Source: an uncultured Schlesneria sp.
Lineage (GTDB): Bacteria; Planctomycetota; Planctomycetia; Planctomycetales; Planctomycetaceae
Length of the DNA: 57,379 bases
Direction: 5' to 3'
Assembly: GCA_903840265.1 (NCBI GenBank)
Contig: CAIMFH010000016.1
Span: 1 to 57,379 of the forward strand
A model generated the notes under the pieces. The model did not search any database. It was not told where the DNA came from and worked only from the letters and a program-made list of their open reading frames with translations. Within the stretch, counting starts at the first letter, position 1; each line of letters opens with the position of its first letter. The position numbers and the translations under genes are program-made. Shown here piece after piece: positions 227 to 24,558 of this stretch.

Positions 227-1290
227 ATGAGAACTGAGCCCAAGGTTTCCAGTCCGCAACAGCAACGATCAGGTTTCACATTGATTGAGTTGCTGGTTGT
301 CATCGCCATCATTGCAGTGCTGATCGCGCTGCTCTTGCCCGCCGTTCAGCAGGCGCGTGAGTCGGCTCGCCGAACTCAGTGTAAAACAATCTGAAGCAAC
401 TGGGCCTTGCGGTCCACAATTTCCACGACGTGCGCAATGGTCTTCCGCCATACATGCTTGGCGACGGTTACCTCAGCTTCTGGGGGATTCTCCTGCCATT
501 TCTCGACAACGCCAACTTGTACAACTCGATTGATCTCACGCAACCAGTGACGAGCACCACCGCCGTCAACAACGGGATCATCAACAACAATGTCATCGGT
601 ACCAATGCGGCAACTGTCGGCAAAGCGTCGCTGCCAGCGTATCACTGCCCAAGCCGCCGTGGCTCCGACGTGAGTACCGGTGGACGGTATGCCTCAATGT
701 CTGGCCCGACGGGAGACTACGCCGTTGTGATCTGGTATGCCAACGATGGAAACGGAACTCAGCAGGGGACGAATTCCAACGACAGCTGGTGGAACTTGCA
801 TGGCCGGGGTCTCGATCAAAACCTTTTTAGCGCCATTAGAACGGCAACGGTTGTCGACCCGGCGACCAGTAACCGCGTGTTTAGCGGTTTGGGTAACACC
901 ACCAACGGCTGGGCTCCTCGCGATTCATTCGCGAAGATCACCGATGGAACTAGTAATACGATCATCATCGGCGAAAAGCACATTACCCAGAACGAAATTG
1001 GGAAGTGCTGCGATAACGGAGATTACGCCGACGGAAACATCTATTATCAAGTTGGTAACTGGGGCGAATACACGGTCGGTCGTCAAATCCGCGGATCCGT
1101 TCCGTTTGCTCCGTACAAGACTTATCCGGATTCCGCAGCGCAAACGACGGCATTCGGAAGCTGGCACGACGGAATGGCTCAGTTCCTACTGGCCGACGGG
1201 TCTGTTCGAGCGATCAGCAGCAATATCGACACCAATCTGTTCCGTAATCTCGGTCATGCCAGCGATGGCAACGTGATTGGCGATTTCTAA
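227..1290 (+). pseudogene. DUF1559 prepilin-like secreted protein, broken by a single-base frameshift
   Basis: The ATG at 227 follows a strong ribosome-binding site (AAGGAG, 216-221). The first frame encodes a type IV prepilin-like N-terminus ([20 protein letters not shown]) and the DUF1559 signature through RRTQCK, then stops at 392-394. The rest (NNLKQLGLA-like start, then the C-terminal SWHDGMAQFLLADGS block and GNVIGDF end) continues in the next frame to 1290. The normal text at the junction is [10 protein letters not shown]. Here the A-run near 383-386 is one base short, so restoring one A rebuilds a protein of about 354 residues. Family function is unknown; members are exported through a prepilin-type signal. 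This is either a recent null mutation or a homopolymer sequencing error. The intact downstream frame favours a recent event or an error. A lipoprotein gene follows, as at the other DUF1559 locus near 50-51.6 kb. Confidence 0.85.
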
Positions 1291-5789: not shown

Positions 5790-5935
5790 TGGCGAATCGA
5801 TTGCCGGTACTTTAACGGCAGCGGCAGCGCAGATAATTCTCGCGCTGGATATTGACGATCCACTTGCGGTGTAAAGTGGTTGGTATCAATAGCCGCTTCG
5901 GCACTTGCTGCCGGAGATCATTCATCAGGGCCCGT

Positions 5936-7051
5936 ATGCGATCCCTCGCTCGCTTCTTTGCGGTTTCATCGTTGGTGGCAGGACAATTCACCGCAGCGAT
6001 CAGTTTCGCGGAGTCACGTCCCGAGGAAGTCTTCAATAACGAACCCGGCAGTGTGGCGGCATTGGCTCCCGCCAAAGGCGTCGCGCCCGTTCAATTGACG
6101 CAGTACCAAGGCAACTTCTTCAATCCGTCAAACGACCTCGAAGACGTTTTTGAATCCAACAGTACTGCTGCTGGCGGGCAACTGTGGACTGCTCGCATCG
6201 GAGCGATCTTCCTGAATCGCGGTGGTCCGCAGCATACCACCATGGTGACCGACGGAGGTGGCAGCCCGCTGCTGCAATCAGGACAATACGATTTCAGTGT
6301 CCCCTGGGGCGGCGAAATCGACGTGATTCGCCATAATCTCAATGGCTCGGGATGGGGATTGGAAGGTCGCTATTTTGGAGTCGGCAATTTCCAGGCAAGC
6401 ACCGCCGCCACCTACGATACTGGTGCTCTTGTCCCTTATATCAATCCGCTCGGAGCAGCAGGGTATTCTCCGACCACGATGAACTCCTCGTATACCGCCA
6501 GCAACCTGTTGAACTTCGAATTGAATGCGCGCAAGCAGGTCAACTCCGATCTGCAACTGCTCGTTGGATTTCGCTATTTCGGATTCAACGAAGGGGTGGG
6601 AATCAACCTCGCCAGCGATCCGTTCTCGTATTACTCAACACATCAGATCGGTGCCACCAACCATCTGTACGGTGCCCAGATCGGAGCCGACAAGCGACTC
6701 TGGCAACATGGCAGATTCCAGTTGGAAGGGATCGTGAAAGCAGGCCTCTACGGCAATCAGTCCGGCAACAGTACTCAGGTCTTCGTGCAAGACGAAGTGG
6801 GAACGGCCTACAGCACTTCGGCCAGCCAGACCCGAGCCTCATTCCTCGGTGAAATTGGATTGGCCGGCCTCTACAAACTAACCGATCACCTCGCCTTCCG
6901 AGCCACCTATCAAGCCTTCTGGCTCGAAGGGGTCGCTTTAGCCTCGAACCAGATCGGGACATCTGATCCTCTCAACGGAGTCGCTTCCGTCAACAACAGC
7001 AGCGGAGCCGTCTTCCACGGTGGCTTCCTGGGCTTGGAATACACCCGCTGA
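5936..7051 (+). CDS. BBP7 family outer-membrane beta-barrel protein
   Basis: A 371-residue protein with a Sec-type signal peptide (MRSLARFFAVSSLVAGQFTA, cleavage likely near the following AISFAES). After a linker, the mature part alternates aromatic and polar residues typical of outer-membrane strands: WTARIGAIFLNRG, GGEIDVIRHN, GWGLEGRYFGVGNF, LLNFELNARKQV, LQLLVGFRYFGFNEGV, LYGAQIGADKRLW, FQLEGIVKAGLYGN, LAFRATYQAFWLEGVAL and a terminal FHGGFLGLEYTR ending in an aromatic-Arg. This is the pattern of the planctomycete BBP7 barrels. ATG 5936 is preferred over an upstream frame start at 5852 because the signal peptide begins there and AGGG precedes it. Probable outer-membrane surface or pore protein; substrate unknown. 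Confidence 0.85.
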   Translation: MRSLARFFAVSSLVAGQFTAAISFAESRPEEVFNNEPGSVAALAPAKGVAPVQLTQYQGNFFNPSNDLEDVFESNSTAAGGQLWTARIGAIFLNRGGPQHTTMVTDGGGSPLLQSGQYDFSVPWGGEIDVIRHNLNGSGWGLEGRYFGVGNFQASTAATYDTGALVPYINPLGAAGYSPTTMNSSYTASNLLNFELNARKQVNSDLQLLVGFRYFGFNEGVGINLASDPFSYYSTHQIGATNHLYGAQIGADKRLWQHGRFQLEGIVKAGLYGNQSGNSTQVFVQDEVGTAYSTSASQTRASFLGEIGLAGLYKLTDHLAFRATYQAFWLEGVALASNQIGTSDPLNGVASVNNSSGAVFHGGFLGLEYTR

Positions 7052-9903: not shown

Positions 9904-10830
9904 TTAGTATTCTCCAATCACCTGACCATCGCTGATCGAAGCGAGTCTGGTGTAGGTCGTGCGATCGACGTTTTCGCTGATGAATCGGACAGAGCCATCT
10001 CCCATCAGAAAATGGCAGCCGCCCGTATGCATGCTGCCAAAGTCCAGAGTCTGCGTGTTGATATCGGTCGTTCTGGCGTTGATCGGTAAAGCGGAATTGC
10101 AGACGCCACCGTTGTCATCTCCGAAGTCCACAACACCCGCCCAGATCGCATCGCCACCGATATGCAAGCCATTGACCAGTCCCGGAGATTGTCGTTCGCC
10201 GATCAGAAACGCATTGCTGAGGCCATCTGAGAAGTCTCGAAAACTTCGGCAGGCGGGGGGATTGCCGGACAGATCGTACCAGGGAAACGCGCCATCGACG
10301 GGATTCGTTGAGTCTGTGCCCTGTACGGAAGGGTAGTTCGACTTTCCGTACGGTTCTGCCCCTGATCCGTAAAAGTCGGTGAGGTTCACAATCGCCGGAC
10401 CCGAGTCCGAGGGACAGCGGTAGACGGTCAGGGTCGAAGAGAGAGCATTGGGGGGCGTGAAGGACTCCATGTGAGCGCTGAAACCAGTGGCGGGGGTGCC
10501 GCCAGGATAGGATTTTCCCACGGTGCTGCCCAAGAGGTTGTACAGCGGGGCCTGATCAAGAAAGGGAAGGATCATGGTCCCCCATCCCCATTCATTCTGG
10601 TGGATCAGACCTGCGGGGATGCGAGACAACGTCTCGTGGTAACCATGCAGCGCCAGGCCGAGCTGCTTCAAGTTGTTTTTGCACTGCGTTCGCCGCGCGG
10701 CTTCTCTGGCCTGTTGCACGGCTGGCAATAGCAAGGCGATCAAAACCGCGATGATCGCGATGACAACCAGGAGTTCGATCAGAGTAAAACCGGCCGTCCG
10801 ATGACGCCCAGGCATCGTTCGCTGTTGCAC
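9904..10830 (-). CDS. DUF1559 prepilin-like secreted protein
   Basis: An intact DUF1559 protein of about 308 residues. [20 protein letters not shown] is the prepilin-type cleavage and membrane segment, followed by the family block [20 protein letters not shown] and [13 protein letters not shown]. The C-terminus has the expected [20 protein letters not shown] and ends in [11 protein letters not shown] 10830 is chosen because GGAGAG lies about 5-8 bases upstream; an ATG 15 bases further in is the alternative, and the frame extension to 10983 has no ribosome-binding site. The protein should be exported and processed by a prepilin peptidase. No lipoprotein partner lies next to it, unlike the other two copies. 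Function unknown. Confidence 0.9.
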
Positions 10831-11113
10831 TGTTCTCTCCTCATAGCCGGGATCAATCGGCACTGAACGTCCCAGCGAGCGATGCATCGCGGTTGTGCCT
10901 GCCTTCATGAAAAAAGCTAACCATGCGTCGTGGCAATAACAATGCCACTTCAGGTGTAGGAAGGTCGATTTGGTGACGTACATTCAATGTCGACAGCGCA
11001 CTCCAAGTTTTGAACGCGGCATAGGGCGTTTTGCTGGGCCGGTGCAGCTCGCTTGGTCTCAGAAATTGATCTGTCACAAAACACGCACTTTTTTGAGGAA
11101 AATTGCAAAAAAC

Positions 11114-12005: not shown

Positions 12006-12677
12006 ATGAATAGTCTTGGCAAAATCCTGGTGGTATTCGTGACGGCAGCCAGCCTGGGTTTTGTCGCGTTCACGATGTCACTCGTCTCCGGCGGCCCAAA
12101 TTGGAAGGCCGAGATGCAGTCGCCCGAGTTAACGGATGATTTCGTCTTCACGATCACTCCCGGTGAAAAGACGACTTACGCAGTCAAGACTCGAAAGACG
12201 GATCAGCCGGTTGGTTCTGCAACTCCCGTGATGGCCGAAGCGGTGGTGGCGGCTCGCAAGAAGCAGGTCGACGATGCGAAGGCCGAAGAAACTCGGCTGA
12301 ACGCAGACGTGGCTCGCCTGCAACCCATCATTAAAGAGATCAAAGATCTGATTCCGCCTGACAAAGCAGGAATGGCGGCACGAGCTCAATTCCTCGACAA
12401 GCTGCTGACCAAGATCAGCGGCGATATTCAGAACACGACTCAGGAAATCGCCACGAAAGCGACCGCGATTCAGCAGATCCAAAAGACGGCTCAAGAACGC
12501 CGTGATGAAGGATTTCGCCTGAAAAATCAGCTCGAATTGATGCGGACGGACTTGTTTGTGTCCCTGGCACAGCAAAAGATTCTGGAAGATGAACTGGTTC
12601 GTGTGGAAGAGAACCAGAAGCGACTTGAACGACGCAGCGAACAACTGCAGAAACAAGTTGAGCCCTACGAGAAATAA
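12006..12677 (+). CDS. Membrane-anchored coiled-coil protein upstream of the mre cluster (paralogue 1)
   Basis: A 223-residue protein starting MNSLGKILVVFVTAASLGFV, an uncleaved signal anchor or single membrane helix. About 60 polar residues follow, then a long heptad-rich coiled coil (for example VDDAKAEETRLNADVARLQ and LEDELVRVEENQKRLERRSE) to the end. The N-terminal sequence matches that of the next gene (GKILVV followed by a similar hydrophobic helix), so the two are likely paralogues or bind the same membrane partner. The gap to the next gene is 96 bases, all on the plus strand leading into mreB. I know no named family for it. A role in cell-wall elongation is inferred from position. Confidence 0.75.
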   Translation: MNSLGKILVVFVTAASLGFVAFTMSLVSGGPNWKAEMQSPELTDDFVFTITPGEKTTYAVKTRKTDQPVGSATPVMAEAVVAARKKQVDDAKAEETRLNADVARLQPIIKEIKDLIPPDKAGMAARAQFLDKLLTKISGDIQNTTQEIATKATAIQQIQKTAQERRDEGFRLKNQLELMRTDLFVSLAQQKILEDELVRVEENQKRLERRSEQLQKQVEPYEK

Positions 12678-12773
12678 GTCGCGGTATTTGTCCGAGCAAG
12701 GGGTCGAGGAACGACCGTCACTTGGAATTGCAGTGGCAAGTTGACGTTGAAAAACTGACGGTGAGGTGACTCC

Positions 12774-13625
12774 ATGACGACAGTCGGCAAAATTCTGGTC
12801 GTGTTGCATCTGGTGCTAAGCATCATGTTCATGGCGTTCGCTGGGGCCGTGTTCACGGCGCAGAAGAACTGGCGAACGAATGCGCTGGCCACTCAGGCTT
12901 CGTTGGCAAAGGCCAACACCAAGCTGAAAGATCAGCTCACCGAGTTCGAACGCGAACGAACCGACACTCAGGTCAAGACCGACAAGCTGAATGATCAGAT
13001 CATGAAGCTGACCTCGGAAAAGGGAACGCTGACCACTCAGGTGCTGGCGTTGACGGCAGATAACGAACGCCTCCAACTGACGAATGATCAGGTTGAAGGT
13101 CAGGCTCAACTGCAGACAGTGGAAGCGACCGAGCGAACTGCCGAATCGACCTTGCAACGCAATCAAAACGCCACGACGTACCAATGGCGTGAACAACTGA
13201 ATAAGAAGGTCCACGAACTCGAAGATACCGTGTTCGCCAAAGACCAGGAAATGCAGCAGTTGAACGACCGCCATGAGCGGGTTCTGAAAGATCTGCAGAC
13301 GATGAAGATATATATGGGTAGCTTACGATTGCCAACTGATCCTAAGCTGATGATTGCCAAAACGACACCTCCACCTCCATTGGAAGGCCGAGTTGTCGAT
13401 TACGTCAAGGAAAAGAAGGGCAATACGGAACTGGTCGAAGTTTCGTTGGGCAGCGATGATGGACTCAGCGTCGGCCATACGATGACGGTCTACAATCGCG
13501 AAGGCCGCTATTTGGGACAGATTCGTCTGACGCTGGTGAACGCCGACAAGGCGGTCGGCATCGTGACGCTCAAGGAAAAGAACACCGTCATTCAGAAGGG
13601 CGACAATGTCACCACGAAGCTCTGA
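12774..13625 (+). CDS. MreC-like architecture protein: membrane anchor, coiled coil and C-terminal beta domain (paralogue 2)
   Basis: A 283-residue protein. Residues 1-30 (MTTVGKILVVLHLVLSIMFM...) form a membrane anchor like that of the gene before it. Residues about 35-190 are a heptad-rich coiled coil. After a PPPP linker the last 85 residues look like a small beta-barrel: VEVSLGSDDGLSVGHTMTVY, then YLGQIRLTLVNADKAVGIV and IQKGDNVTTKL. The phrase 'GSDDGLSVG' parallels 'GRDGDLSPEDG' in the MreC encoded downstream, and the overall plan (anchor, coiled coil, beta domain) is that of MreC. The end overlaps a 46-residue membrane protein gene by 20 bases. It is probably a periplasmic scaffold acting with MreBCD. 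The similarity is read by eye. Confidence 0.75.
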   Translation: MTTVGKILVVLHLVLSIMFMAFAGAVFTAQKNWRTNALATQASLAKANTKLKDQLTEFERERTDTQVKTDKLNDQIMKLTSEKGTLTTQVLALTADNERLQLTNDQVEGQAQLQTVEATERTAESTLQRNQNATTYQWREQLNKKVHELEDTVFAKDQEMQQLNDRHERVLKDLQTMKIYMGSLRLPTDPKLMIAKTTPPPPLEGRVVDYVKEKKGNTELVEVSLGSDDGLSVGHTMTVYNREGRYLGQIRLTLVNADKAVGIVTLKEKNTVIQKGDNVTTKL

Positions 13626-13746
13626 TAACGCGCCGGCTCCCGATGTCTACGTCTCGTTGCTGTGGGTCTCGCTGGCCGCATTGCTGACGGGAATCGTCTT
13701 CCTCGTCATGGCCCTGTCGGCCTACGATTGGAAACTGAGTCCCTGA
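13606..13746 (+). CDS. 46-residue single-pass membrane protein overlapping the coiled-coil gene
   Basis: The ATG at 13606 lies 20 bases inside the end of the preceding gene, in another frame, and the frame ends at TGA 13744-13746. The product has a 15-residue polar start (MSPRSSDNAPAPDVY), one strongly hydrophobic helix (VSLLWVSLAALLTGIVFLVM), and a short polar tail ending in DWKLSP. The in-frame overlap, the well-formed membrane helix and the lack of stops argue that it is real. It lies between the coiled-coil pair and mreB, so a small adaptor of the elongation machinery is a reasonable guess. AGAAGGG at 13595-13601 provides a ribosome-binding site. Confidence 0.7.
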   Translation: MSPRSSDNAPAPDVYVSLLWVSLAALLTGIVFLVMALSAYDWKLSP

Positions 13747-13880
13747 TCGGCAAATAGGACCGGTCCTGAACCCCGTCTTGCCGCGAACTCCGGCAGAAAC
13801 TACAACTCCGCCGGCGCAATGTTCCTCCATGGGAGGGGTCTGCGCCAAAGTTGCGTATTTTTCGCACGGCGGATGCACGG

Positions 13881-14930
13881 ATGCTCTATCGCCTTAAACG
13901 CTGGCTCAGCCCCGACTTGGCTATCGATCTCGGTACGGCCAATACGCTGATTGCCATCCAGGGAGAAGGGGTCGTCCTCGACGAACCGTCCGTGGTCGCG
14001 CTACAAAAAGGAACGCGGCGAGTCCTTGGTCGCGGGACCGCGGTCGGCAAGCTAGCTCGACAAATGCTCGGCCGGACTCCCGATTCGATCACCACAGTCA
14101 AGCCAATCCAGGACGGAGCCATCACCGACTTCGAACTGTGCGAAGCCATGCTGCGCTACTTCATTCGGAAGGCGGCCAGAACGACTCCCGGTATTCGTCC
14201 AAATGTTGTGATTGCTGTGCCCGGCGGGATCACGCAAGTCGAAAAGCGAGCTGTCTTTAACAGTGCCGAACGAGCAGGGGCCGGGCGAGTCTATCTCGTC
14301 TCGGAATCGAAAGCCGCCAGCATTGGAGCTGGCTTACCCATCGCTGAACCGATGGCGAACCTGATCTGTGAGATCGGTGGCGGGACCACGGAAGTCGCCG
14401 TCTTGAGCTTGGCCGAGATCGTTGCCAGCAAATCTTTACGCATCGCCGGCGACGACTTCGACCAGGCGATTGTCGACTATCTGAAGCGAAACTTCTCACT
14501 GCGGATCGGTGATCAAACCGCCGAGCAGTTGAAGATCCGCGTCGGTTCCGCGTACTCGTTGGACCAGGAGCAGACCAGCGAAGTGCGTGGACTTGATGTC
14601 GTCAGCGGGGTGCCTCGACGAGCCATTGTGACGAGTGAACAGATCCGCGAGGCATTGCGTGGTCCTCTGGAATCGGTGTTAAACGCGGTCAAGAGCGTGA
14701 TCGAACAATGCGATCCAGAACTGGTGGCGGACCTGTCTGATACCGGCATGGTGTTGTCCGGTGGTGGGGCCTTGTTGCCTGGGCTGGACCTGTTCTTTCG
14801 TGAGCACTTGGGCATTCCAGTTCGAGTAGCGGCTGATCCACAGCGAACTGTGATTCGCGGCACGGCTATTTGTGTCGAGCATCTGCACCAATGGAAAGAC
14901 AGTCTGGAAGCCAGCGATGGCAGCTTCTAA
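13881..14930 (+). CDS. mreB: Rod shape-determining protein MreB (bacterial actin)
   Basis: A 349-residue actin-fold ATPase that polymerises under the membrane and guides lateral wall synthesis. Visible motifs are the phosphate-1 loop DLAIDLGTANTLI near the N-terminus, VIAVPGGITQVEKRAV, the phosphate-2 loop ICEIGGGTTEVAVLSL, AGDDFDQAIVDYLKRNF, and the adenosine motif GMVLSGGGALLPGLD. The length is normal for the family. ATG 13881 is chosen because MreB proteins usually begin within a few residues of the amphipathic RLKRWLSPDLAIDLG segment. A TTG at 13851 follows GGGAGGGG but the spacing is long. The gene leads a tight mreB-mreC-mreD-mrdA run with gaps of 27-29 bases. Confidence 0.96.
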   Translation: MLYRLKRWLSPDLAIDLGTANTLIAIQGEGVVLDEPSVVALQKGTRRVLGRGTAVGKLARQMLGRTPDSITTVKPIQDGAITDFELCEAMLRYFIRKAARTTPGIRPNVVIAVPGGITQVEKRAVFNSAERAGAGRVYLVSESKAASIGAGLPIAEPMANLICEIGGGTTEVAVLSLAEIVASKSLRIAGDDFDQAIVDYLKRNFSLRIGDQTAEQLKIRVGSAYSLDQEQTSEVRGLDVVSGVPRRAIVTSEQIREALRGPLESVLNAVKSVIEQCDPELVADLSDTGMVLSGGGALLPGLDLFFREHLGIPVRVAADPQRTVIRGTAICVEHLHQWKDSLEASDGSF

Positions 14931-14957
14931 CGAAGGACCACGACCACGGGAGATTGA

Positions 14958-15899
14958 ATGTCGTCAATGAGCGGGCCATTAACTTGCGTGCTGGTTCTAG
15001 TCGGCGTGGGGCTGCACTTTGCTCCCGAGAACGTCGTGGCCCGAGTGCGCGCGGTCATAGCCGATTCATTGCGGCCTGGACAAGTGGCCGCTCGCGAAGT
15101 CACTGAGTTTGTTCGTGGCCACGGCAGCATGAACTTGACGAAGACTGATCGCGATCATCGTACTGAAGTGGATCGTCTGCGAGATCAACTGCAAGAGGAG
15201 CAGACTCAAACGGCGGCACTGCAGATTCGCCTCGCTCAACTCGCCGATCACAACTCTCGAACGGATTCGCTGCCCGAGACTATTCGCACATTGCCGCCGC
15301 TCGTCACGTCGTCGCTAATCGATGCGGCCGTCCTTGGTGATGCGGTTGCCGAGAAGTGGCGAAAAGGGAAGCTGCTGGATCGCGGACAAACGAGCGGCGT
15401 TCGAGAGACCGAGCTGGTGGTGAAGAGCAATCATGCGCTGGTCGATGTTGGCCGAGATGGTGATCTTTCGCCTGAAGATGGCGTTTTGTTAGGACGGTGT
15501 GTGATTGGGAAGGTCGAACGAGTTGGCCGCTGGACGAGTACGTTCCTGCTGCTGACTGATTCCGGCTACCGTGGCCGTGCCCAGTTGGTCCATCAAGCGG
15601 ACTCGGGATATGTGTTTGGAGCGAAGGGGATTCTGGAAGGGCAGGGTGAGCCGCTCTGTCGTCTCAAGGGAATCGCTTCTTCTGATTCGGTCACCGTCGG
15701 CGATGCCGTCTATGCCGCAACGCGGGAGGGACTGTCTTCGACTCCCTTGTACTACGGCCGAGTCGTCGAAGCTTCATTGGGCCCCTCTGATTCCGAATGG
15801 AAAGTCCTGGTCGAACCTGTTCCTGTTCCCAGCGATCTGCAAAGCGTCCAAATCATGCGAACTGCGGTGAACAACGAACGACTGACGGCCGAGCGATAA
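14958..15899 (+). CDS. mreC: Rod shape-determining protein MreC
   Basis: A 313-residue bitopic membrane protein that links MreB and MreD to the periplasmic wall synthases. It has an N-terminal membrane helix (SGPLTCVLVLVGVGLHF), a coiled coil at about residues 60-100 (RDHRTEVDRLRDQLQEEQTQ), and the paired beta-barrel region: VDVGRDGDLSPEDGVLLGRC, VIGKVERVGRWTSTFLLLTD, then GEPLCRLKGIASSDSVTVGD and YYGRVVEA. The length fits the family. GGGAG a few bases upstream supports ATG 14958. Sequence conservation is looser than in Proteobacteria, so the call also rests on its position between mreB and mreD. Confidence 0.88.
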   Translation: MSSMSGPLTCVLVLVGVGLHFAPENVVARVRAVIADSLRPGQVAAREVTEFVRGHGSMNLTKTDRDHRTEVDRLRDQLQEEQTQTAALQIRLAQLADHNSRTDSLPETIRTLPPLVTSSLIDAAVLGDAVAEKWRKGKLLDRGQTSGVRETELVVKSNHALVDVGRDGDLSPEDGVLLGRCVIGKVERVGRWTSTFLLLTDSGYRGRAQLVHQADSGYVFGAKGILEGQGEPLCRLKGIASSDSVTVGDAVYAATREGLSSTPLYYGRVVEASLGPSDSEWKVLVEPVPVPSDLQSVQIMRTAVNNERLTAER

Positions 15900-15927
15900 C
15901 TTGGGTGACGATTAAGGAACAGTAGCG

Positions 15928-16464
15928 TTGTTACGATTCGTGGGAGTTCTGGTGACGATCTACGTGGGCGTGGTCGCTCATTGTAGTGTCGTGCCTGCGG
16001 AAGTGGCCGGGATGGGTCGTCCCTTTTTGCCAGCACTGATCCTGGTCGTCATCGCCGCAGGTTGCGAAGCGTCGTTATCGATACTGCTGGCGGCGCTTCT
16101 TGGTTTGATCCTGGATGGTCTATCGACCGAACGCCTGGGTGTTCATCTGGCGTTGGCAGCGATGCTCGCCTTGGGCCTGCAGTTGCTGCAGCCGATGTGG
16201 CGATCGCGCAGTGCGCTGGGATTGATTGCGATGACGATCGTGACCTGTCTGGCGTGGCGCATGCTGGCTCCGATGGCGCTGGCGATGCTGTCAGATCGCA
16301 AGGTCAATCCGCATTCCTTGCTGACCTCTGCGGTGCAAGATTCGGCTTGGACCGCTGCCGTGGCGAGCGTATTGATTCTGCTGGCACGCGGACTGGTTGG
16401 TCAGAAAATACAGGTCCAGACGATCACAGAACGCTCGACGCAAAAGTGGGCCACGGCCCGCTAG
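15928..16464 (+). CDS. mreD: Rod shape-determining protein MreD
   Basis: A 178-residue polytopic membrane protein with five or six hydrophobic helices (for example FVGVLVTIYVGVVAHCSVV, PALILVVIAAGCEASLSILL, AALLGLILDGL, LALAAMLALGLQLLQ and VASVLILLARGL). The GLILDGLSTERLGVHL stretch resembles the conserved MreD loop after the third helix. The start is TTG 15928, with AAGGA about 9 bases upstream. It lies 28 bases after mreC and 29 before mrdA. MreD completes the MreBCD complex. Assignment rests on topology, length and gene order because MreD is poorly conserved. Confidence 0.82.
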   Translation: MLRFVGVLVTIYVGVVAHCSVVPAEVAGMGRPFLPALILVVIAAGCEASLSILLAALLGLILDGLSTERLGVHLALAAMLALGLQLLQPMWRSRSALGLIAMTIVTCLAWRMLAPMALAMLSDRKVNPHSLLTSAVQDSAWTAAVASVLILLARGLVGQKIQVQTITERSTQKWATAR

Positions 16465-16493
16465 TGTGAGGCACGACAGAAGAAGTCAGGTTC

Positions 16494-18737
16494 ATGTTAA
16501 ATCGACCTTCGGCAACATGGTCAGTACCGGAAGCAGACCGTTCCCGTGATTGGGATCCGGATCGCGCTCCCGGAGTGCGCCTGTCGCTGATGTGGCTGGG
16601 TATGTTGATACCGCTGGTCGCAGTCGTGGTTCGCATGGGACAACTGCAGATCATGCTGCAGCAGGATTTCGCTGACGGATTCGAGCAGACGTACGAAGTT
16701 CTGGAAGAGATTCCCGCTCGTCATGGACGTATTCTGGCGGCGGACGGCAGCGTGCTGGCCGGTGAGGACGCTCGCTACGACTTGCAGATGAACTATCGCT
16801 TGATTCAGGAACCTGCGGACGAACGCTGGTTGCGTGGTGAAGCCTTACGCAACCTGGATCGGGTGGAACGCAAAGATAAGCAGAAGGTGGCTGCTGAGAA
16901 GGAACGTGTGCTGAAGCGTCGCGAAGAACTTTGGGAGGCGGTCGCCAAATTGACGGGACGTAGCTCGCAAGAATTGGCCGAGACACGGTTGCAAGTTCAA
17001 AACCGCGTCGTCCAACTGCGCAAAGATGTGCTACGCCAACGAGCGGAGCGTCAGGAACAATTGAATGCGAAACCCGTCGACTCGACGGTGCCCGCAAGTG
17101 CTGGTTGGGCGTCGATCTGGACTCAAGTTCGTAAAGAGCTGACCGAACCACCGACTCGCTCGCTGGATGCCGAGCCGTTGATCGAAGAAGTGGGTTCTCA
17201 CACGATTGTGTCGGGCGTCGATGCGGATGTGAAAGCTGAGATTGAGGCTCATCGAGAGCGGTATCCGGGTCTGCGAATCGATGTTCAAACGCGGCGAGTC
17301 TATCCGCAGGGCGAACTGGCATCGCACCTCATCGGCAGCCGCACGCTGCTGTTGGCTGATGAAGCGAAAAAACGTCAGATCACTGAGCCCGAGTCTGATC
17401 TGCGGATTGGTGATCCAATCGGACGCAGTGGCCTGGAACTGAAATATGATGCTCACCTGCGCGGTGTGCGAGGCCAGCGCCGTGTGATGAAGAATCGTCG
17501 CGGCGACATCGTTTCGACTGAGGATCTGCGTCAGCCTCGACATGGCCGCGATCTGGTGCTGACTTTGGATATGGAGGTCCAGCGACGATCAGAGCAACTG
17601 CTGGATGAGGCGCTGGCAGTCGTCACGCTTCCTCAAACGGTCGACGACGAATCGAGCCAGCTTGTCACCGAATATCCTTCGCTGCCGCAGGGTGCGTGTA
17701 TCGTTGCGATCGATGTCCATAGTGGGGCGATTCTGGCGGCTGCTTCGGCGCCTCGATTCGACTTAAACTTGTTGACTCATCCTGACCGTCAACGTTGGCA
17801 GGATCTGATGGACGATCCGCGGAAGCCGCTGTATTCGCGAGCGACGCAGATGGCGCTGCCACCGGGGTCGGTGTTCAAGGTGATTTCCGCAGTGGCTGCC
17901 GTGGAATCGGGCAAAGTGAACCCCGACACGCCAATTGCATGTCGCGGGTATCTTGATCGGCCCGATCAGCATCGTTGTCAGATCTTCCGGCATCATCACG
18001 TCGGTCACGGGAATACACAGTTGGACGATGCCTTGTGTTGCTCGTGCAACGTCTACTTCTTTACCGCCGCACGGCGCATGGGGCCTGGGCCATTGGTCGA
18101 ATGGGCGACGCGATTCGGCATGGGTCAGCGAACCGGAATCGATTTGCCATCCGAAGGGGTCGGGCATCTGCCGTCTCCGGAAGAGATGGTAAATGGGCAT
18201 CGACGGCGCTGGTATCCGAGCGACACACTTGGCTTGGTGATAGGTCAAGCCGATCTGCTGGTGACTCCGCTACAGATGGTGCGAGCGATGGCGGCTGTGG
18301 CCAATGGCGGCCAACTGGTCACGCCACACCTGGCGGGAGAAGTTGGGCCCGTGTCGATGAGCGATGCACCCTCATTCCGACCGGTGTTTTCTCATCCCGA
18401 ACCGCAGCCGATTGAGGGCTTGCAAAGCGAAACGCTCGCTCATGTTCGCGAAGGTTTGGAAAAGGTCGTCAATCATCCCAGCGGCACGGCCTACAAGACC
18501 GTTCGAATGAAGGAAGTTCGTATCGCGGGTAAGACGGGAACTGCGGAATCGGGATCCATGGATCATGCCTGGTTCGCGGGTTACGTTCCTGCGGAACGAC
18601 CTCGCGTGGCCTTTGTGGTTGTGTTGGAGCAGGGTGGCGGCGGAGGCAAGGCGGCGGGGCCGGTGGCGAAAAAGTTTGTCAGTTGTCTGCTCGACCTGGG
18701 CTTGGTCACTCCGGTGACGGATTTGGCACGTGAGTAG
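16494..18737 (+). CDS. mrdA: Penicillin-binding protein 2, peptidoglycan transpeptidase
   Basis: A 747-residue class B PBP that cross-links peptidoglycan during elongation, with SEDS protein RodA as its usual partner (rodA is not in this window). It has one membrane helix at about residues 32-52 and a dimerisation/pedestal region holding an unusually long charged coiled insert (about residues 120-200, ERKDKQKVAAEKERVLKRRE). The transpeptidase motifs are Ser459-V-F-Lys462 in LPPGSVFKVISA, Ser517-Cys-Asn519 in DDALCCSCNVYFF, and Lys680-Thr-Gly in AGKTGTAES. The three cysteines around the SxN motif are uncommon. It lies 29 bases after mreD and ends the cluster. The length is about 100 residues above typical PBP2 because of the insert. 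Confidence 0.93.
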   Translation: MLNRPSATWSVPEADRSRDWDPDRAPGVRLSLMWLGMLIPLVAVVVRMGQLQIMLQQDFADGFEQTYEVLEEIPARHGRILAADGSVLAGEDARYDLQMNYRLIQEPADERWLRGEALRNLDRVERKDKQKVAAEKERVLKRREELWEAVAKLTGRSSQELAETRLQVQNRVVQLRKDVLRQRAERQEQLNAKPVDSTVPASAGWASIWTQVRKELTEPPTRSLDAEPLIEEVGSHTIVSGVDADVKAEIEAHRERYPGLRIDVQTRRVYPQGELASHLIGSRTLLLADEAKKRQITEPESDLRIGDPIGRSGLELKYDAHLRGVRGQRRVMKNRRGDIVSTEDLRQPRHGRDLVLTLDMEVQRRSEQLLDEALAVVTLPQTVDDESSQLVTEYPSLPQGACIVAIDVHSGAILAAASAPRFDLNLLTHPDRQRWQDLMDDPRKPLYSRATQMALPPGSVFKVISAVAAVESGKVNPDTPIACRGYLDRPDQHRCQIFRHHHVGHGNTQLDDALCCSCNVYFFTAARRMGPGPLVEWATRFGMGQRTGIDLPSEGVGHLPSPEEMVNGHRRRWYPSDTLGLVIGQADLLVTPLQMVRAMAAVANGGQLVTPHLAGEVGPVSMSDAPSFRPVFSHPEPQPIEGLQSETLAHVREGLEKVVNHPSGTAYKTVRMKEVRIAGKTGTAESGSMDHAWFAGYVPAERPRVAFVVVLEQGGGGGKAAGPVAKKFVSCLLDLGLVTPVTDLARE

Positions 18738-22373: not shown

Positions 22374-22435
22374 AAAGCTCCGTCGAGCCGGAGCACTCCA
22401 AAGGGGGACTTTGGAGTGCGGTGGCTGGACACCGC
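22374..22435. repeat. Dispersed repeat with three consecutive hairpins (copy A, longest)
   Basis: Three stems follow one another. GCTCCG/CGGAGC is at 22377-22394. GCACTCCAAAG/CTTTGGAGTGC, a perfect 11-bp stem with a GGGGA loop, is at 22393-22419. GCGGTG/CACCGC is at 22418-22435. Adjacent stems share bases, so alternative foldings are possible. The core GCTCCGTCGAGCCGGAGC followed by ACTCCA recurs at 22599, 24698, 30537 and, degenerate, 39071. Confidence 0.8.
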
Positions 22436-22598
22436 TTTGGCTCCAATTCAAAAGTACCTCGTTGCGCGGGGGGTGGGAAGATGAACACTTCAATTCTTCA
22501 ATCGCGTCGTCTTCGCCGTTCGTAAGCTCTCCGCATCGGGTGTTTTTCTGGGGACTGGCCGATCTTCTCGTGATCTGGAGGCTTTGGCGATTGAACCC

Positions 22599-22625
22599 AA
22601 AGCTCCGTCGAGCCGGAGCACTCCA
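22599..22625. repeat. Dispersed repeat, copy B
   Basis: An exact copy of the core found at 22374, including the leading AAA, and ending ACTCCA. It lacks the second and third hairpins. It lies 85 bases before the start of the secreted protein gene. Confidence 0.8.
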
Positions 22626-22710
22626 CATGTCGAAAAAGCCTTTTCCTGATTCGGTGTTTGTCGATATGATCCGGCAGACAAAATGTCTGCTGGTGTGCAA
22701 GGATGTGCTC

Positions 22711-24558
22711 ATGTCGAATTCCATCCGCTGTCGTGCTGTGTTGCTGTTCGCCGCTGTCGCCTTCAATGGCCTCCTGCTGCGGGGAGCAATTGCACAAGAT
22801 GATCCCATTGCACAGCCTGATCATCCTTTGGTCGTGGCGGCCGTGGCCAGCGTGGACCGATTGCTCGATCGGGCAGTCGACGTCATGCAAGTCAGTGGAA
22901 CTGGCACCACGCGCGAAGATGTGATCGCCCTGCTGCAAAAGTCGGTCATCGAGCTGGAAGGTGAAACAACATCGCAGTGGTTCGATCTGACCAAACCAGC
23001 CGGCATTATGTTTTTCTTCGACAGCGCATGGCTGACTCCGGGCGCAGCTGAGGCAAAAAAAGATGGAGACGATGGTGAGGCTTCTGCCGGCGCACCCTCA
23101 GCTTTGGCCGGAGCGGTGTCGGAAACGGGGCTGTCCCCGAAGCGCTTCGTCGGTTTCTTTCCCGTGAAGGACTATCAGCAGATGCTGGTGCAGGGAAAAT
23201 GGACGCCGGTCGAAGGTAAGGTGAATTGTTTTCGCAATGACAAAGGTATCGAGGAATATGCGCGCCGGTTCGGCAACTATGTGGTGATCGGAGAAGACGG
23301 CGACACGGTCGATCATTGTCCCGATCCTCGAGAGGTCGTGAAAAGTGTCCTCGGCAAGAACGATGTGGCAATCTCATTGCAATTGAAGGGGTTGCCGCCG
23401 TTGTTCAGATCGCTGGGAGCGGAGGGGATCAAATCGGTCTATGACGCGGGGCTGCAGCGTCGCGATGATGAGCAGGAGCGTGACTATCTACTGAGACGGG
23501 CGCTGGGTGACATCACTCGCGAACTGCTGGACTTGGCGATGACTCAGATCGATGAAGTCACGCTGGGCATTCGAATGGAGGCGGATGTCCGCTCAATTGT
23601 CGAACTGGAAGTGAATGGAACCGCCGAGGGGAAGCTTGCCAAATTCGCCGCAGAGATGACTCCGAAGAAGTCTGCGTTCGACCCCTTGTGGAATGCAGAC
23701 TACGACCAATCACTGGGGCTCTCTTTGGCGCTCCCCCAGCGGCACGCAAAACCTCTGGCTGCGGCCATTCGAAATTATGTGGCCACAGCGACCACGGCTG
23801 CCGAGGTCAAGGCGATTAAGGAGAGTGCCCCGATAATCAATGTGGGGTGCCGCATGTTGGAGACCAACCAGTTCGAATTGATCTATACAGGTGAACGAGA
23901 AGGGGACGCCAATGTCTCACTGTTGGGGATTCGAATTCCCACGAATCGAGATTTCCCTCAACAGTTCGAGGGGCTGATGTCCCAAGCCAAGGATGTGGAA
24001 TTCACGACAACTGCGTTGGAAGGCTTGCCATTGTATCACACCACGGAACTTCCTTTTCTTGCGGGCGGCTTTCGAACAATGGTTTCTGAGACTGGATTTA
24101 TCGATGCGGGCGAAGCAGAAGCGGAGTGTCATTCCTGGCTGATCGCTACTCCAGATGCATTCTGGCTCTGTTCGAGAGCAGGCGAATCTGACGAAACGAT
24201 TCCGACTTTGCTGCATCGCGCGTTGGATATCAAAACACTGGCCGCGGACAGCTCCAGAAATCGTCGCTCAATCACCCCGTTTCGGATGTCACTGCATCCG
24301 CGTCACTGGAAGAGTGCGAATGCTGATCCCGATGAGGGGGATGCGACGGTCGATCGCAAGCCAGATCCGGAACTTGAACGACTGGTCGCTCAACGAGAAC
24401 AGCGCCAGCAGCTCTATGATGCGCATCCCGACGGCATTTCGGTGGAGTTACTCCCCGCAGCACGCGGTTTAAAGCTGACGATGGCTTTTGATGCCGTCTA
24501 TGCTGTACTTGTTCCACAGATGATTAAGGAGACATTCCTGGGTGTCGATAGTCGCTAG
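22711..24558 (+). CDS. Large secreted protein of unknown function
   Basis: A 615-residue protein with a clear Sec signal peptide (MSNSIRCRAVLLFAAVAFNG, cleavage probably after the following GAIAQ). No transmembrane segment, repeat or catalytic motif was recognised in the mature part, which mixes helices and strands. An Ala/Gly/Asp-rich loop is at about residues 115-130. A phrase near residue 155, KRFVGFFPVKDYQQMLVQ, and the C-terminal LLPAARGLKLTMAFDAVYAV are the most conserved-looking segments. ATG 22711 has AGGA about 8 bases upstream; the longer open frame from 22411 runs through repeats. Probably periplasmic and specific to planctomycetes. I do not recognise the family. Confidence 0.75.
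   Translation: MSNSIRCRAVLLFAAVAFNGLLLRGAIAQDDPIAQPDHPLVVAAVASVDRLLDRAVDVMQVSGTGTTREDVIALLQKSVIELEGETTSQWFDLTKPAGIMFFFDSAWLTPGAAEAKKDGDDGEASAGAPSALAGAVSETGLSPKRFVGFFPVKDYQQMLVQGKWTPVEGKVNCFRNDKGIEEYARRFGNYVVIGEDGDTVDHCPDPREVVKSVLGKNDVAISLQLKGLPPLFRSLGAEGIKSVYDAGLQRRDDEQERDYLLRRALGDITRELLDLAMTQIDEVTLGIRMEADVRSIVELEVNGTAEGKLAKFAAEMTPKKSAFDPLWNADYDQSLGLSLALPQRHAKPLAAAIRNYVATATTAAEVKAIKESAPIINVGCRMLETNQFELIYTGEREGDANVSLLGIRIPTNRDFPQQFEGLMSQAKDVEFTTTALEGLPLYHTTELPFLAGGFRTMVSETGFIDAGEAEAECHSWLIATPDAFWLCSRAGESDETIPTLLHRALDIKTLAADSSRNRRSITPFRMSLHPRHWKSANADPDEGDATVDRKPDPELERLVAQREQRQQLYDAHPDGISVELLPAARGLKLTMAFDAVYAVLVPQMIKETFLGVDSR

Follow-up and report, generated by a model that had tools for sequence, protein, structure and literature searches.

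A coiled-coil protein and a small membrane protein encoded upstream of mreB form an undescribed envelope gene pair in planctomycetes

Our analysis of a 57,379-nucleotide contig from an uncultured Schlesneria sp. (CAIMFH010000016.1, called the window here and taken at its full length) identified an undescribed envelope gene pair that lies upstream of mreB. The pair encodes CC2, a protein with a membrane anchor, a predicted coiled coil and a predicted beta domain, and micro, a single-pass membrane protein; in the window, a second coiled-coil gene, CC1, precedes them, and mreB, mreC, mreD and mrdA follow on the same strand (Table 1). The operon tie of CC2-micro to mreB is real and old, and the pair is also retained in genomes from which MreB is missing. 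We propose, with confidence that is evenly divided, that planctomycetes possess an envelope scaffold whose conserved core is CC2 and micro, and that this scaffold originated in the mre operon, or joined it very early, and also works without MreB. Passages of two papers describe planctomycetes as devoid of FtsZ and many essential genes of P. limnophila as phylum-specific and of unknown function (PMC6952346; PMC10632474), and, according to a passage of a 2025 study of a laterally budding planctomycete, the divisome of polar-budding members of the phylum is not understood (PMC12288469). CC2 and micro provide a short, concrete gene list for asking what shapes and divides these FtsZ-less cells. No coiled-coil protein upstream of planctomycete mreB is named in the titles, abstract openings and passages that made up our literature survey; a 2012 comparative-genomics paper on planctomycete morphogenesis, cited in PMC12283558, may list such genes.

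All genome samples used here lie within the phylum and comprise 150 genomes of the window's own order, 77 of a sister order (that of genome G345), 148 of the class and 294 of the phylum. Outside the own order, the matches listed for the phylum cover 126 genomes with CC2 and 133 with MreB, 65 of them shared. Among these matches, 54 of the 65 shared genomes, spanning 31 family codes, encode CC2 on the strand of mreB and 200-1467 nt ahead of it; in the remaining 11 the two genes are on different contigs, some possibly as a result of assembly breaks. Sister-order genomes that have both genes carry them side by side in 24 of 25 cases, 310-638 nt apart, with separate contigs in the last (G453). A scripted recount of the families, of this adjacency, of the own-order distances and of the lnt positions gave matching numbers. 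In deep lineages of the phylum the gene order is often lnt (encoding apolipoprotein N-acyltransferase), CC2, a small open reading frame (ORF) with a single transmembrane (TM) segment, mreB, mreC and a penicillin-binding protein (PBP) gene. Searches with profile hidden Markov models (HMMs) of 20 such deep loci, chosen for CC2 with an adjacent mreB (all other fetched loci were chosen for CC2), found lnt in 15, MreC in 19, PBP in 14 and CC1 in none. In three of them (L082, L085 and L090) a HEAT-repeat protein, checked with Pfam in L082, is encoded between lnt and CC2. The initial annotation of the window raised the question of whether both coiled-coil proteins and micro are found next to mreB in other planctomycetes; this holds for CC2 and a small membrane protein and fails for CC1, which in the samples searched is found in the window's order only.

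In the sister order, the presence of CC2 does not depend on MreB. CC2 occurs in 75 of the 77 genomes and in 64 of the 64 high-quality ones, MreB in 26 (22 of the 64), and MreC exceeds its cut-off in 14, 13 of these with MreB. Of 51 MreB-less genomes, 50 retain CC2, and the exception (G488) is 77% complete. HMM searches of 30 fetched MreB-less loci recognised micro in 28 and lnt in 14, and PBP, MreC and CC1 in none, the search for PBP2 covering these loci and not whole genomes. In a quick, single-gene CC2 tree of 44 genomes (14 with and 30 without mreB, all chosen for having CC2), mreB changes state no fewer than 11 times; many forks of this tree are open, and gain and loss are not distinguishable on it. 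Throughout the class sample, which like the phylum sample includes own-order genomes whose sequences built our CC2 profile (A1), CC2 is present in 146 of 148 genomes and in all 136 high-quality ones. The near-complete retention of CC2 in MreB-less genomes means that it is not only an MreBCD scaffold and that CC2-micro has an MreB-independent role; the idea of a dedicated scaffold tied to MreBCD, with which the analysis began, is therefore too narrow. A review passage gives MreB in almost all proteomes of the Planctomycetes-Verrucomicrobia-Chlamydiae (PVC) group except some budding planctomycetes (PMC5147048). One genome (G470, contig C84) has MreC and CC2 ~1.3 kb apart, match to match, and no MreB at E up to 1e-30, perhaps reflecting recent or partial loss of mreB.

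CC2 is predicted to consist of an anchor, one continuous periplasmic helix of ~150 residues and a six-stranded beta domain; the model places the helix at residues 4-183 and the strands at 204-280, and the periplasmic side of the rod is predicted from the anchor. The predicted structure thus has the order of parts that had been remarked on at the outset, namely that of MreC (PF04085), with an inner-membrane anchor followed by a coiled coil and a beta domain. MreC also shares with CC2 a place in the mre operon and, it appears, a weak, above-null profile similarity of the beta domain. The whole-protein CC2 profile aligned with MreC at probability 57 (E 1.1e-4) and the beta-domain profile at probability 83 (E 8.9e-6, score 39.3), compared with null scores that did not exceed 16.5 over 100 column shuffles or 15.7 over 11 other families of the loci, and with 20.3 for the reversed profile; a second MreC alignment gave a score of 32.0 and probability 47.7. 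MreC was absent from the best 50 matches of each of two fold searches, a result that is compatible with likeness to MreC. In contrast, CC2 fails the Pfam MreC model: there is no match over the cut-off for the window's CC2, the 25 families listed (of 114) for 18 members do not include this model, and the model touches one of 53 CC2 beta domains, at E 0.055. MreC has two barrels, whereas CC2 has a coil of ~150 residues and a single beta domain of ~80 residues; CC2 also coexists with true MreC and outlasts the loss of MreB and MreC.

Other families resemble the beta domain as well. The C-terminal domain of FlgT (FlgT_C, PF16538) matched 34 of the 53 beta domains at E up to 1, the best at 1e-6, which by extrapolation lies above the 27-bit cut-off. 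Five of ten re-scanned members scored 16.6-22.3 bits, below that cut-off, the other five gave no match at E up to 0.05, and the window's own beta domain gave none at E up to 1. The top PDB sequence matches of the beta domain are weak and fall on TsaP and LysM-domain proteins (E 0.02 and 0.08); a PDB sequence search with CC2 returned coiled-coil noise only, save a weak match to a LysM-domain protein. CC2 differs from FlgT and TsaP by its anchor, its coil and its site in the mre operon. The N-terminal beta-barrel fold of F1-ATPase is a further likeness, a common small barrel at ~10% identity that carries no functional implication. No Pfam or NCBIfam family, including MreD and other elongasome membrane-protein models, exceeds its cut-off for CC1, CC2 or micro of the window. 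CC2 and micro share an operon with MreD. A PHROGs search gave nothing for CC1 or micro and weak matches for CC2.

The second member of the pair was considered as a chance ORF and that reading was rejected. Micro has 16 relatives that are 46-89% identical, and its dN/dS outside the CC2 overlap is 0.07-0.08 in two of three pairs, the third having no computable dS. CC2 is followed by a small ORF that contains a single strongly hydrophobic stretch in 19 of 20 deep, 41 of 44 sister-order and 10 of 10 own-order loci (70/74); applied downstream of the genes for MreB, MreC, PBP, Lnt and CC1, this test was positive in 2 of 154 cases. An HMM built from own-order micro sequences recognises only 2-3 of the 20 deep small ORFs, and their assignment as putative micro homologues rests on position, size and the hydrophobic stretch. 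CC2 and CC1 are likewise under purifying selection, with dN/dS of 0.06-0.24 and 0.11-0.13, respectively (three pairs each).

CC1 stands apart, and the initial treatment of the two coiled-coil proteins as equals did not survive: CC2 occurs across the phylum and CC1, as judged from the samples searched, appears to be a lineage-specific addition confined to the window's order. Strong CC1 matches in the class sample fall in the window's family only (36 genomes at E < 1e-32 plus a split match in G030, of 37), and the remaining matches are mostly the CC2 anchor itself. CC1 was absent by HMM from the 20 deep and 44 sister-order loci, the search outside the class covering loci and not whole genomes; CC1 as a phylum-wide component was accordingly rejected. 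The anchor motif GKILVV that had first linked the two proteins extends to a homologous stretch of 38 residues (34% identical, probability 98.8, E 6.5e-17 by profile-profile comparison), past which the same comparison aligned no similarity. Since the likeness is confined to the anchor, CC1 may be a diverged tandem copy of CC2 without the beta domain. Possible models for such an origin are seen in G161, which has two full CC2 copies in tandem (L083, 2469-4175), and in G432, where a 211-aa CC2-like ORF lies directly upstream of CC2 (L138, 4241-5730). Of the 30 best-scoring own-order loci, among them the window, 29 have CC1, CC2 and micro together; in the remaining locus, L026, micro was not found by tblastn.

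How might such a scaffold operate? We propose that CC2 is held in the inner membrane by approximately residues 7-30 and that its rod of ~150 residues, ~22 nm long if straight, reaches into the periplasm with the small beta domain at its tip. Micro would be its one-helix membrane partner. CC2 may self-associate through the coil, and the beta domain could grip a periplasmic partner, either a wall synthase (PBP2/RodA where present) or another component of the wall or outer membrane. Its action would be structural, by analogy with the positioning of PBP2 by MreC. In cells with MreBCD, the cytoskeleton would determine the position of the CC2 scaffold; in those that have lost MreBCD, the envelope job of the scaffold would continue. 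CC1, with the shared anchor, would have been added in the window's order. The location of CC2-micro beside mreB in deep lineages suggests that the pair served wall growth, and a role in wall growth or division is inferred. On the simplest reading, the pair would be a structural platform for growth of the envelope, formerly positioned by MreBCD. We further speculate, as a distinctly unlikely extension, that planctomycetes have a machine for growth and division that depends on neither FtsZ nor MreB, with CC2-micro, a membrane rod complex once coupled to MreBCD, at its core and CC1 as a later specialisation in the window's order. If so, the pair would have taken over the organisation of envelope growth and of budding in lineages from which FtsZ and, later, MreBCD disappeared.

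The pair is worth testing because CC2 is found in every high-quality genome of the class, lies beside mreB in deep lineages and is retained after mreB loss. The CC1-CC2-micro triad occurs in G020, a genome that we take to be the genetically tractable P. limnophila, so that tests could be made there. In G020 the triad is at ~972.8-974.6 kb of contig C1, ~2.4 Mb from mreB; its MreB has 348 aa, and the spacings to mreC and mreD are like the 74 and 3 nt given for P. limnophila in a passage of PMC6952346.

Several observations weigh against an envelope scaffold rooted in the mre operon. According to passages of two papers, mreB, ftsI, ftsW, pbp2 and rodA can be deleted from P. limnophila without a growth defect and its mur genes were non-essential in a transposon screen (PMC6952346; PMC10632474); with mreB, pbp2, rodA and the tested mur genes dispensable (PMC10632474), CC2 may not serve wall synthesis. 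CC2 is rarer than MreB in the phylum sample (211 versus 272 of 294 genomes), a shortfall that may in part reflect the low sensitivity of profile A1, which was built from own-order sequences only. Pfam places the beta domain nearer FlgT_C than MreC (34 versus 1 of 53). CC2 is 65% and MreB 95% identical to the counterparts in L003, and such faster evolution is unlike that of a closely fitted core component of the elongasome. Many CC2 loci also retain lnt as a neighbour, which may indicate a different envelope process.

CC2 is, moreover, usually unlinked from the mre genes in the window's own order, where CC2 is present in 144 and MreB in 141 of 150 genomes. The linkage count used 143 of the 144 CC2 genomes, G127 not being among those listed. 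In the 134 genomes with both genes listed, mreB is 229-1163 nt downstream of CC2 in 18 and ~22 kb away in two, and linkage within 30 kb is absent from 114. Both genes lie on one large contig in 21 genomes: three have them adjacent, one ~22 kb apart and 17 more than 400 kb apart, and for this last reason we regard the break as real and not only an effect of assembly. The 18 genomes with adjacent genes represent 12 genera and include G023 and G028, which have the most divergent full-length MreB (47-48%); adjacency in this order looks like an old arrangement that was lost many times. The scattering of homologues away from the mre genes, named at the outset as the observation that would count against a link, is found inside the own order (18 of 134 within 1.2 kb); outside it, adjacency prevails among the matches listed.

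The strongest rival, although on balance an unlikely one, would give CC2-micro a general task in the envelope that is unrelated to growth or division, for example in secretion, in lipoprotein handling or in tethering the inner to the outer membrane, with nothing more than an old operon in common with mreB. It is favoured by the lnt neighbour and by the FlgT_C/TsaP-like head: HMM searches place lnt ahead of CC2, in the same orientation, in 27 of 44 sister-order and 15 of 20 deep loci (42/64), an old linkage, and detect it in 14 of the 30 MreB-less loci as well, and the beta domain is FlgT_C-like with TsaP and LysM-domain proteins as its best, weak, PDB sequence matches. In P. limnophila (L153, 12105-14480) and six other own-order loci, a divergently oriented STAS-type gene is found upstream of the triad, in P. 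limnophila with a T2SSE ATPase gene after it. However, mreB, where present, follows CC2 in the sister order (24/25) more often than lnt precedes CC2, lnt is found in none of 11 own-order loci examined, and CC2 has an MreC-like predicted architecture. Because the deep loci had been selected for their linkage to mreB, they give no fair comparison of mreB and lnt as neighbours.

It is also conceivable, if quite improbable, that CC2 is distantly related to MreC and substitutes for it or assists it, organising PBP2 together with MreC or in its place. The shared order of parts, a profile similarity exceeding the nulls tried, and the scarcity of MreC over its cut-off in MreB-positive sister-order genomes (13 of 26, versus 25 of 26 for CC2) would fit such a role. 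Against it, CC2 and MreC coexist in the window and in 19 of the 20 deep loci, and CC2 persists where MreB and, over cut-off, MreC are gone, with a PBP2 gene in 0 of the 30 MreB-less loci. Pfam MreC barely touches the CC2 beta domains (1/53, E 0.055), and CC2 has one small beta domain and not the two barrels of MreC. Accidental hitch-hiking of CC2-micro without any functional link to the mre genes has next to no chance and is largely refuted, for although 114 of 134 own-order genomes show no linkage within 30 kb and 17 of 21 single-contig cases exceed 400 kb, same-strand adjacency in 54 of 65 genomes from 31 families, among the matches listed, and in 24 of 25 sister-order genomes is far beyond accident.

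Table 1. Features of the CC2-micro and mre locus, in positions of the window
Feature	Positions	Strand	Remarks
CC1	12006..12677	+	N-terminal membrane anchor and predicted coiled coil, 223 aa
CC1 anchor, residues 1-38	12006..12119	+	homologous to CC2 anchor by profile-profile comparison
CC2	12774..13625	+	anchor, long helix, beta domain (predicted), 283 aa; occurs across the phylum
CC2 membrane anchor, residues 1-38	12774..12887	+	
CC2 continuous helix (anchor and coil), residues 4-183	12783..13322	+	predicted structure, predicted local distance difference test (pLDDT) mostly 80-95
CC2 C-terminal six-stranded beta domain, residues 204-281	13383..13616	+	predicted; FlgT_C/MreC-like
micro	13606..13746	+	46-aa single-pass membrane protein; 20-nt overlap with the end of CC2
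mreB	13881..14930	+	probable ATG start; ORF as listed begins at TTG 13851
mreC	14958..15899	+	Pfam
mreD	15928..16464	+	Pfam and NCBIfam, over cut-offs
mrdA / class B penicillin-binding protein (PBP2)	16494..18737	+	Pfam, NCBIfam

The seven consecutive plus-strand genes are present as first described, and Pfam confirms MreB (7.5e-124), MreC (7.6e-15), MreD (6.5e-8) and the class B PBP (1.2e-63). The start of mreB required correction: ATG 13881 is most likely, in preference to TTG 13851; the resulting protein would have 349 aa and begin MLYRLKRW, similar to the 348-aa relative in L154. Intergenic gaps are 27-29 nt within mreB-mreC-mreD-mrdA and 134 nt between micro and mreB. A terminator-like hairpin with a T-run lies at 13841-13857, just 5′ of mreB, and the region contains 11 such sites in total, compared with 7.0 ± 2.8 in shuffles. 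A promoter and terminator scan of the region was at about chance level, and the operon structure is therefore deduced from gene spacing alone. A passage of a 2016 review that reports MreD in no PVC proteome (PMC5147048) is at odds with the mreD gene of the window.

The genome to which the window belongs encodes a full MreB, MreC and CC2 once each, and its CC2 is 96% identical to the counterpart in the nearest named relative. A second full MreB was rejected, as six weaker PF06723 matches are all partial and presumably represent Hsp70-type ATPases, and a search of the genome likewise gave no second MreC. Elsewhere in the window, a 715-aa ORF (22411-24558, plus strand) has no Pfam match at E up to 1e-4. 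Two DUF1559 proteins are encoded at 9904-10983 (minus strand), with a type IV pilin-like methylation motif, and at 430-1290 (plus strand); this family is described as a large planctomycete paralogue family in a passage of PMC10632474. A putative beta-barrel porin of the BBP7 type is encoded at 5852-7051 on the plus strand.

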